A stretch of DNA of 56,437 bases. It comes from Aquipuribacter sp. SD81 (GTDB lineage Bacteria; Actinomycetota; Actinomycetes; Actinomycetales; JBBAYJ01). Positions 23,977-24,107 of the stretch are shown here, piece after piece. Below the pieces are notes generated by a model. It was not told the origin of the DNA. It was given only the letters and a program-made list of their open reading frames with translations, and ran no database searches. A program made the position numbers and the translations under genes. Location: the NCBI RefSeq assembly GCF_037153975.1, contig NZ_JBBAYJ010000026.1:1-56437 (forward strand), given 5' to 3'. Position 1 is the first letter of the stretch; every line of letters begins with the position of its first letter.

Positions 23977-24047
23977 GGTGCTCTCCTCGGCTGTGTCACT
24001 GCTGACGGCCGGCAGGGGGCATCCTCCGCGACGGGGCGGCCGACCTG
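23977..24047 (-). promoter_or_regulatory. Putative leucine attenuator region before leuA
   Basis: Between the leader-peptide stop and the leuA start the transcript has competing inverted sequences. CACTGAC at the leader stop (plus 24048-24054) can pair with GTCAG and CAGTG near plus 23998-24007. CAGG pairs with CCTG, and GGCCG repeats add alternatives. One fold would sequester the region just before the leuA GAGGAG. Whether control is by termination or translation cannot be told from sequence. Confidence 0.45.
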
Positions 24048-24095
24048 TCAGTGGGCCCCGGCGCGGCAGCGAAGGAGGAGGGCTGCCCGGCGCAC
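24048..24095 (-). CDS. leuL: leuA leader peptide
   Basis: A 15-codon reading frame, [15 protein letters not shown] followed by TGA. It has three successive Leu codons (CTC CTC CTT), of which CTT is rare in this genome. GTG 24095 lies exactly 6 nt after a TACGGT -10 box, so it would begin a leaderless transcript. It is followed by self-complementary RNA and then leuA, which is the expected layout for ribosome-mediated attenuation reported for actinobacterial leuA genes. It is too short to be found by length-based gene calling. Confidence 0.6.
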
Positions 24096-24101
24096 GCTTC
24101 G

Positions 24102-24107
24102 ACCGTA
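24102..24107 (-). promoter_or_regulatory. -10 box of the leuA leader transcript
   Basis: TACGGT on the minus strand, 6 nt before the leader-peptide GTG. No good -35 box is evident. Confidence 0.45.

Follow-up and report, generated by a model that had tools for sequence, protein, structure and literature searches.

LEU elements upstream of leuA, leuC and leuB-ilvE in Actinomycetes: a possible modular ribosome-stall switch with one pseudoknot and an exchangeable codon box

The enterobacterial leu operon and other classical attenuators have a leader peptide that carries a run of codons for the end product of the pathway. In actinobacteria, a different arrangement upstream of leuA was named the LEU element by Seliverstov, Putzer, Gelfand and Lyubetsky in 2005 (PMC1262725). 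Its described parts are a Leu-run leader, a pseudoknot, a base stem in which the Leu run pairs with the Shine-Dalgarno (SD) sequence, and an alternative hairpin. Mutation results from S. coelicolor (1999 data) led the authors to judge attenuation unlikely and to propose a protein ligand. The targets given there are leuA and one transposase gene; leuB, leuC and ilvE are not named. Leu-run leaders before leuA are also mentioned elsewhere. The leuA leader LeuL1 of S. lividans is leaderless by RNA-seq and lacks a typical terminator (passages in PMC8079986), and the leuA leaders of C. glutamicum and C. diphtheriae are noted in passages of PMC4046766, PMC5784534 and PMC8709942.

The window is the whole stretch of DNA that was analysed, 56,437 nucleotides from Aquipuribacter sp. 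SD81. The original prediction placed a leucine leader peptide with an attenuator upstream of leuA. The features of this locus are listed in the order of transcription, with the evidence for each in brackets.

24102..24107, minus strand: -10 box TACGGT (sequence)
24048..24095, minus strand: leader ORF with GTG start, 15 codons and stop TGA (Leu run and conserved C-terminus in relatives)
24072..24080, minus strand: codon box CTC CTC CTT, putative sensor codons (alignment of relatives)
24056..24066, minus strand: S1 5' arm CCGCGCCGGGG, within the leader ORF (alignment, covariation; the window copy has a single C-U mismatch)
24039..24045, minus strand: S2 5' arm GGTCGGC, within the loop of S1 (cross-species re-pairing)
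24026..24036, minus strand: S1 3' arm CCCCGTCGCGG (alignment, covariation)
24007..24013, minus strand: S2 3' arm GCCGGCC, closing an H-type pseudoknot (cross-species re-pairing)
23983..23988, minus strand: leuA SD sequence GAGGAG (sequence)
22219..23976, minus strand: leuA, 2-isopropylmalate synthase, GTG start (profile matches)

The predicted 15-codon frame with three adjacent Leu codons, 6 nt past a -10 box, was confirmed on the minus strand at 24095-24048. Its GTG at 24095 follows TACGGT (24107-24102) by 6 nt, and the frame reads GTG CGC CGG GCA GCC CTC CTC CTT CGC TGC CGC GCC GGG GCC CAC TGA. From the -10 spacing we infer that the leader start is used in leaderless translation. Twelve pairs of TAnnnT and a start codon with 5-8 nt spacing occur on the two strands of the whole window, and one of the 12, the leuA leader, opens a short ORF with LLL. 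At 151 of 199 element loci, TAnnnT lies 6-8 nt upstream of an in-frame ATG or GTG when the best possible start is taken; the control rate of the same geometry is 0.25% per upstream position. The assignment of the downstream gene to leuA also holds, with the 585-aa product matching NF002991 (891 bits) and TIGR00970 (844 bits). Among the matches listed, the best named relatives of this LeuA are Actinomycetes, the first being Kineococcus at 77%. Expression of leuA is thus very probably controlled by a Leu-run leader peptide.

Retention of the Leu run in relatives had been set as a test of the prediction. Searches with LeuA gave at least 80 named loci; within the order, LeuA was present in 142 of 149 genomes, and 30 loci were available with sequence, the window's own included, for a total of 110 loci examined. 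A short ORF with at least three consecutive Leu codons precedes leuA at 105 of these 110 loci, an outcome in favour of the prediction. The run of three is absent from the remaining loci (L050, L059, L063, L064 and L097), and a two-Leu version of the leader was recognized by eye in L064 and L097.

The complementary segments proposed to form alternative folds after the leader fared differently. CACTGAC, GTCAG, CAGTG, CAGG and CCTG are all present in the window. However, GTCAG and CAGTG are missing between the stop codon and leuA in the sister genomes (L005 and L006), so the folds built on them are not conserved there; the conserved helices are others, S1 and S2. The leader folded as a single sequence is no better than its shuffles (z -0.02), and a consensus scan of the window leader for promoters and terminators found nothing. 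No terminator-like site follows the leader (0 found). As the element was already described in 2005, the leader is not a new attenuator.

By its sequence features the window leader is a LEU element; the identity of its helices with the published ones rests on the text and legends of PMC1262725. Shared features are the position upstream of an actinobacterial leuA, a Leu-run leader ORF, a conserved pseudoknot and no described terminator. CTCCTC of the Leu run and GAGGAG of the leuA SD sequence are complementary in the window, but such a match is expected with any SD sequence and is lost in most leuB copies. A Leu-run peptide before leuA is the point of likeness with leuL of S. lividans, where it is the leaderless MRFGLLLLSCRGEGL (passages in PMC8079986), and with Corynebacterium leuL (passages in PMC4046766, PMC5784534 and PMC8709942). 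Those passages of the four papers treat leuL as an attenuator leader and describe no pseudoknot. With the enterobacterial leu attenuator the window leader shares a peptide that carries a run of end-product codons; unlike that attenuator, it has a pseudoknot, and no terminator was found in it.

The first helix of the pseudoknot, S1, was defined in alignment A1 (model R1), which holds 88 leaders taken from 100 listed loci. Columns 21-31 pair with columns 54-64, and 97.3% of cells are paired across the 88 leaders. Cells with a double change number 52, compared to 17.8 +/- 4.4 after shuffling, and also exceed the slid controls; when the copies not linked to leuA are added, the count is 62 compared to 15.8 +/- 8.2. 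Further pair types are less striking (12 vs 10.6 shuffled, with 54 of 500 shuffles equally high). RNAalifold recovers the S1 helix with 10 pairs. S1 is present in 105 of the 110 loci in a search demanding an LLL run, or 103 after removal of 2 duplicates, and at least 9 of its 10 pairs form in all 27 leuB copies. Its loop extends to 29-82 nt in L014, L017, L026, L033 and L087 (Arthrobacter, Nesterenkonia), where the S1 arms are retained.

The second helix, S2, pairs the S1 loop with a segment lying mostly 10-17 nt past the S1 core. Its mean score is 15.77, compared to 13.88 +/- 0.28 when partners are exchanged between species, and the maximum of 300 exchanges was 14.56. A larger set of 166 leuA copies gave 17.22 compared to 14.81 +/- 0.20, and none of 300 re-pairings reached the observed mean; the same was true of the leuB copies (n=27, 0/300). 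The leuC copies (n=5) were not above cross-pairing (152/300). S2 has only 4 bp in some loci, several Microbacteriaceae among them. The 5' arm of the pseudoknot is part of the leader reading frame, whose stop codon falls in the S1 loop in most copies. The C-terminus of the leader recurs, often as xCRDEA or xCRGGA, its bases being a helix arm. A search downstream for another conserved pairing of the S1 3' arm found none, either in leuA copies (mean run 5.71 vs 5.98 shuffled) or in leuB copies (6.33 vs 6.16).

R1 was used to survey the distribution of the element. Of 394 genomes sampled from the class, 377 had a match, as did 31 of 296 genomes spread over the phylum, 11 of the latter having two. 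Five of the 31 lie outside the class, and four of these have leuA behind the element (L162-L165). The fifth, in genome G208, was taken as false; by eye it precedes a Ku-like gene, and no match to leuA, leuB, leuC or ilvE accompanies it. The window copy scores 60.5 bits with R1, its own row being included in the model. Second matches lie before leuC (L148-L150), leuB-ilvE (L151, L152, L160), a second leuA (L153-L155) and, in genomes of one family, small genes (L156, L157). At L160 both leuB and ilvE are behind the element.

A second model, R2, covers the part after the codon box, that is, the pseudoknot only, and was built from 80 of 107 sequences (alignment A2), mainly leuA copies. It was run on 58 genomes, all but G000 chosen for having at least two R1 matches, so that the shares of target genes are not frequencies. 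Matches were found in 57 of the 58 genomes, 122 in total. Five were in the earlier set, and 100 of the other 117 were classed: 67 sites before leuA, 24 before leuB, 2 before leuC, 3 before LeuA-dimer-like small genes, and 4 that were not used. Among the matches set aside, L168 and L169 lie within genes, judged by eye, L170 has no leuA, leuB, leuC or ilvE match on its stretch, and at L235 the contig ends. Seventeen of 18 named genomes gave matches, 25 overall, of which 17 were before leuA. Copies before leuB occur in Nocardioides terrigena, Nocardioides sp. Soil805, Haloactinopolyspora alba and Nostocoides sp. Soil756, and copies before leuC in Microbacterium sufflavum, Microbacterium sp. SORGH_AS_1204 and Leifsonia virtsii. 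The remaining copy, with the leader MTRQVFVLL..., is in Planotetraspora silvatica.

LeuA and LeuC serve leucine alone, whereas IlvE makes leucine, valine and isoleucine. The codon box follows this division. Among the codon-agnostic R2 sites, Val or Ile is found in the last three box codons at 22 of 24 leuB sites compared to 2 of 67 leuA sites, and 62 of the 67 leuA sites have an LLL box. The enlarged set, to which the earlier sites and those of the named genomes were added, gave 29 of 31 for leuB, 2 of 167 for leuA and 0 of 8 for leuC, but its 167 leuA boxes were partly picked by the Leu-run pattern (103 of 170 before duplicate removal), and the codon-agnostic count is the fairer one. Typical leuB boxes are LVLI, LVIL, FVLI, IFVL and VRIL; the leuC copies have Leu boxes. 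The 2 of 31 leuB sites without a Leu/Val/Ile box in the pseudoknot frame, L174 and L176, are near-identical and from one genus; some 1.6 kb separates them from leuB, and a regulator-like gene lies in this interval, as judged by eye. In the first set, the 27 sites before leuB come from only 7 families and hence are not independent events, and similarity within compared to between genomes does not tell a single from a repeated origin of the leuB copies. Since IlvE makes all three amino acids, the box codons go with the pathway, and the pseudoknot remains the same.

The boxes are rich in rare codons. In the genes downstream of the element in the fetched loci, CTT makes up 1.1% of Leu codons, GTA 2.1% of Val codons and ATT 2.3% of Ile codons. 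The last codon of the leuA box is CTT in 154 of 170 copies, CTC in 16 of 170 and never CTG; leuB boxes hold 31 Val codons, 26 of them GTA, and 29 Ile codons, 13 of them ATT. The U that ends the last box codon could have a structural role and need not mark a slow codon. Box and S1 are 5-8 nt apart in each of the 198 copies measured, in a search that allowed 3-8 nt. Computation shows the leader, the conserved pseudoknot, the rare-codon box, its near-constant spacing and the change of the box with the downstream pathway.

Given the footprint of a ribosome, one halted on the box would touch or just precede S1, and one at the stop codon would cover the S1 5' arm. The region 24107-23977 of the window is likely a LEU element that reads leucine by ribosome stalling, with the state of the pseudoknot setting leuA expression. 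Transcription would start at or close to the leader GTG, and a ribosome would translate the 15 codons without an SD sequence. When charged Leu-tRNA is scarce, the ribosome would stall on CTC CTC CTT a few nucleotides before S1, and the pseudoknot just ahead could form or persist. With ample leucine, the ribosome would continue as far as the TGA, which lies in the S1 loop, cover the S1 5' arm and open the pseudoknot. The state of the pseudoknot would then set leuA expression, starvation presumably raising it. The output step would not use an intrinsic terminator; it probably works through access for translation, or through Rho or decay.

What acts as the sensor is the main point on which this reading departs from PMC1262725, which favours a protein ligand. 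There, the pseudoknot is the site for a regulatory protein (orthologues of ML1624 were put forward by Seliverstov et al.), and sensing does not involve the leader peptide. The strong conservation of the pseudoknot itself would fit such a site, as would the codon-mutation results in S. coelicolor that PMC1262725 reports, which also count against codon sensing. However, a protein site gives no reason for Leu boxes at leuA and leuC compared to Leu/Val/Ile boxes at leuB-ilvE, with the rare codons of each, and we consider it unlikely. The pseudoknot is kept even where the box differs according to the pathway, and the comparison suggests that reading of the codons by the ribosome is the sensor and favours this over protein binding. 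Counting against codon sensing is that no output structure was found: neither a terminator nor a conserved second pairing of the S1 3' arm was seen. Classical transcription attenuation by way of an intrinsic terminator has in its favour the leader peptide with its run of end-product codons. Against it, the window leader is followed by no terminator-like site, a T-rich stretch occurs within 130 nt of S1 in only 23 of 166 leuA, 0 of 27 leuB and 0 of 5 leuC copies, and the segments of the original prediction are not conserved in the sisters. Attenuation of this kind is therefore very improbable.

Two further proposals concern the output and are compatible with codon sensing. In one, the Leu run CTCCTT would be an anti-SD sequence, hiding the ribosome-binding site of leuA for as long as no stalled ribosome sits on the run. 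The window match described above is in line with this, and at least 5 consecutive Watson-Crick bases with AAGGAGG are possible in 131 of 167 leuA boxes. Yet CTCCTT fits any SD sequence, so the match is not evidence, and measured against AAGGAGG, which is a consensus and not each gene's own site, only 3-4 bases pair in 36 of 167 leuA and 24 of 27 leuB boxes. As most leuB boxes have lost the match, a stem between Leu run and SD sequence is no general requirement. Masking by the Leu run is a tentative suggestion for the element; as the general output step it fails, though it could be a layer specific to leuA. In the other, termination would be Rho-dependent, with C-rich, G-poor RNA past the pseudoknot exposed once the leader has been terminated, and with Rho blocked by a stalled ribosome and folded pseudoknot. 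The 50 nt past the pseudoknot have C 0.36/G 0.25 in leuA copies (0.33/0.36 upstream) and C 0.40/G 0.29 in leuB copies (0.34/0.36 upstream), in a comparison with upstream sequence only, and the failure to find an intrinsic terminator is consistent with Rho. However, G-poor leaders may be a general trait of 5' regions, and the median of 37.5 nt from the end of S1 to the leuA anchor (an alignment anchor, not a mapped start) is short for Rho, which makes this a rather doubtful output, slightly more so than masking. A programmed frameshift at CUU before the pseudoknot was also considered, on account of the spacing between the two, and was set aside.

Returning to codon sensing, on balance we lean towards the LEU element being a modular ribosome-stall switch, in which one pseudoknot and an exchangeable box of rare Leu, Val or Ile codons 5-8 nt ahead of it would act over leuA, leuC, leuB-ilvE and LeuA-dimer-like genes of Actinomycetes, without an intrinsic terminator or a stem between Leu run and SD sequence. 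The window copy is an ordinary copy of the known element, and the new part, the codon swap, lies outside the window. Going beyond the published description, the element also stands before leuC, before leuB-ilvE and before genes of the LeuA-dimer-like kind, its boxes matching the pathway. No report of a LEU element before leuB, leuC or ilvE was found in the titles, abstract openings or passages of the papers searched; the leuC search was weak, its term also catching leucine, and a 2010 attenuation survey from the same group (Lopatovskaya et al.) may list some. The papers found do not settle the mechanism, which was left open in 2005. The natural swap between leuA/leuC and leuB-ilvE codons is evidence for the codons as sensor and makes this old question testable. 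In parts of the class, the likely targets of the element now also include other leucine-synthesis steps and the shared aminotransferase. Rfam 15 gave no match at the window leader, at either the gathering or the E-value threshold, and none in 8 loci with leuA, leuB, leuC and LeuA-dimer-like elements; this points to an RNA family without a match in that release.

Some genes behind the pseudoknot deserve a separate mention. In the genomes of one family (f22; L156, L157, L175, L186 and L213), small stand-alone LeuA-dimer-like genes follow LEU-type pseudoknots with the boxes LVV, LLV and ALV. The LeuA_dimer profile (PF08502) scored above the Pfam cutoff in 2 of the 4 small proteins scanned and below it in the other 2. 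A free LeuA-like allosteric (dimerisation) domain under a LEU-type switch is unexpected. At L220 (genome G475), a TTVL box precedes a distant leuA paralogue with 50% identity, which may serve another pathway. Finally, a small conserved ORF, often of the form MYDMYPWNR...ALQxALDRRDNGG, was found downstream of the pseudoknot with a simple pattern in 14 of 32 loci. It sits between the element and leuB in L172, L173, L174, L177, L208, L218, L227, L261, L279, L290 and others.
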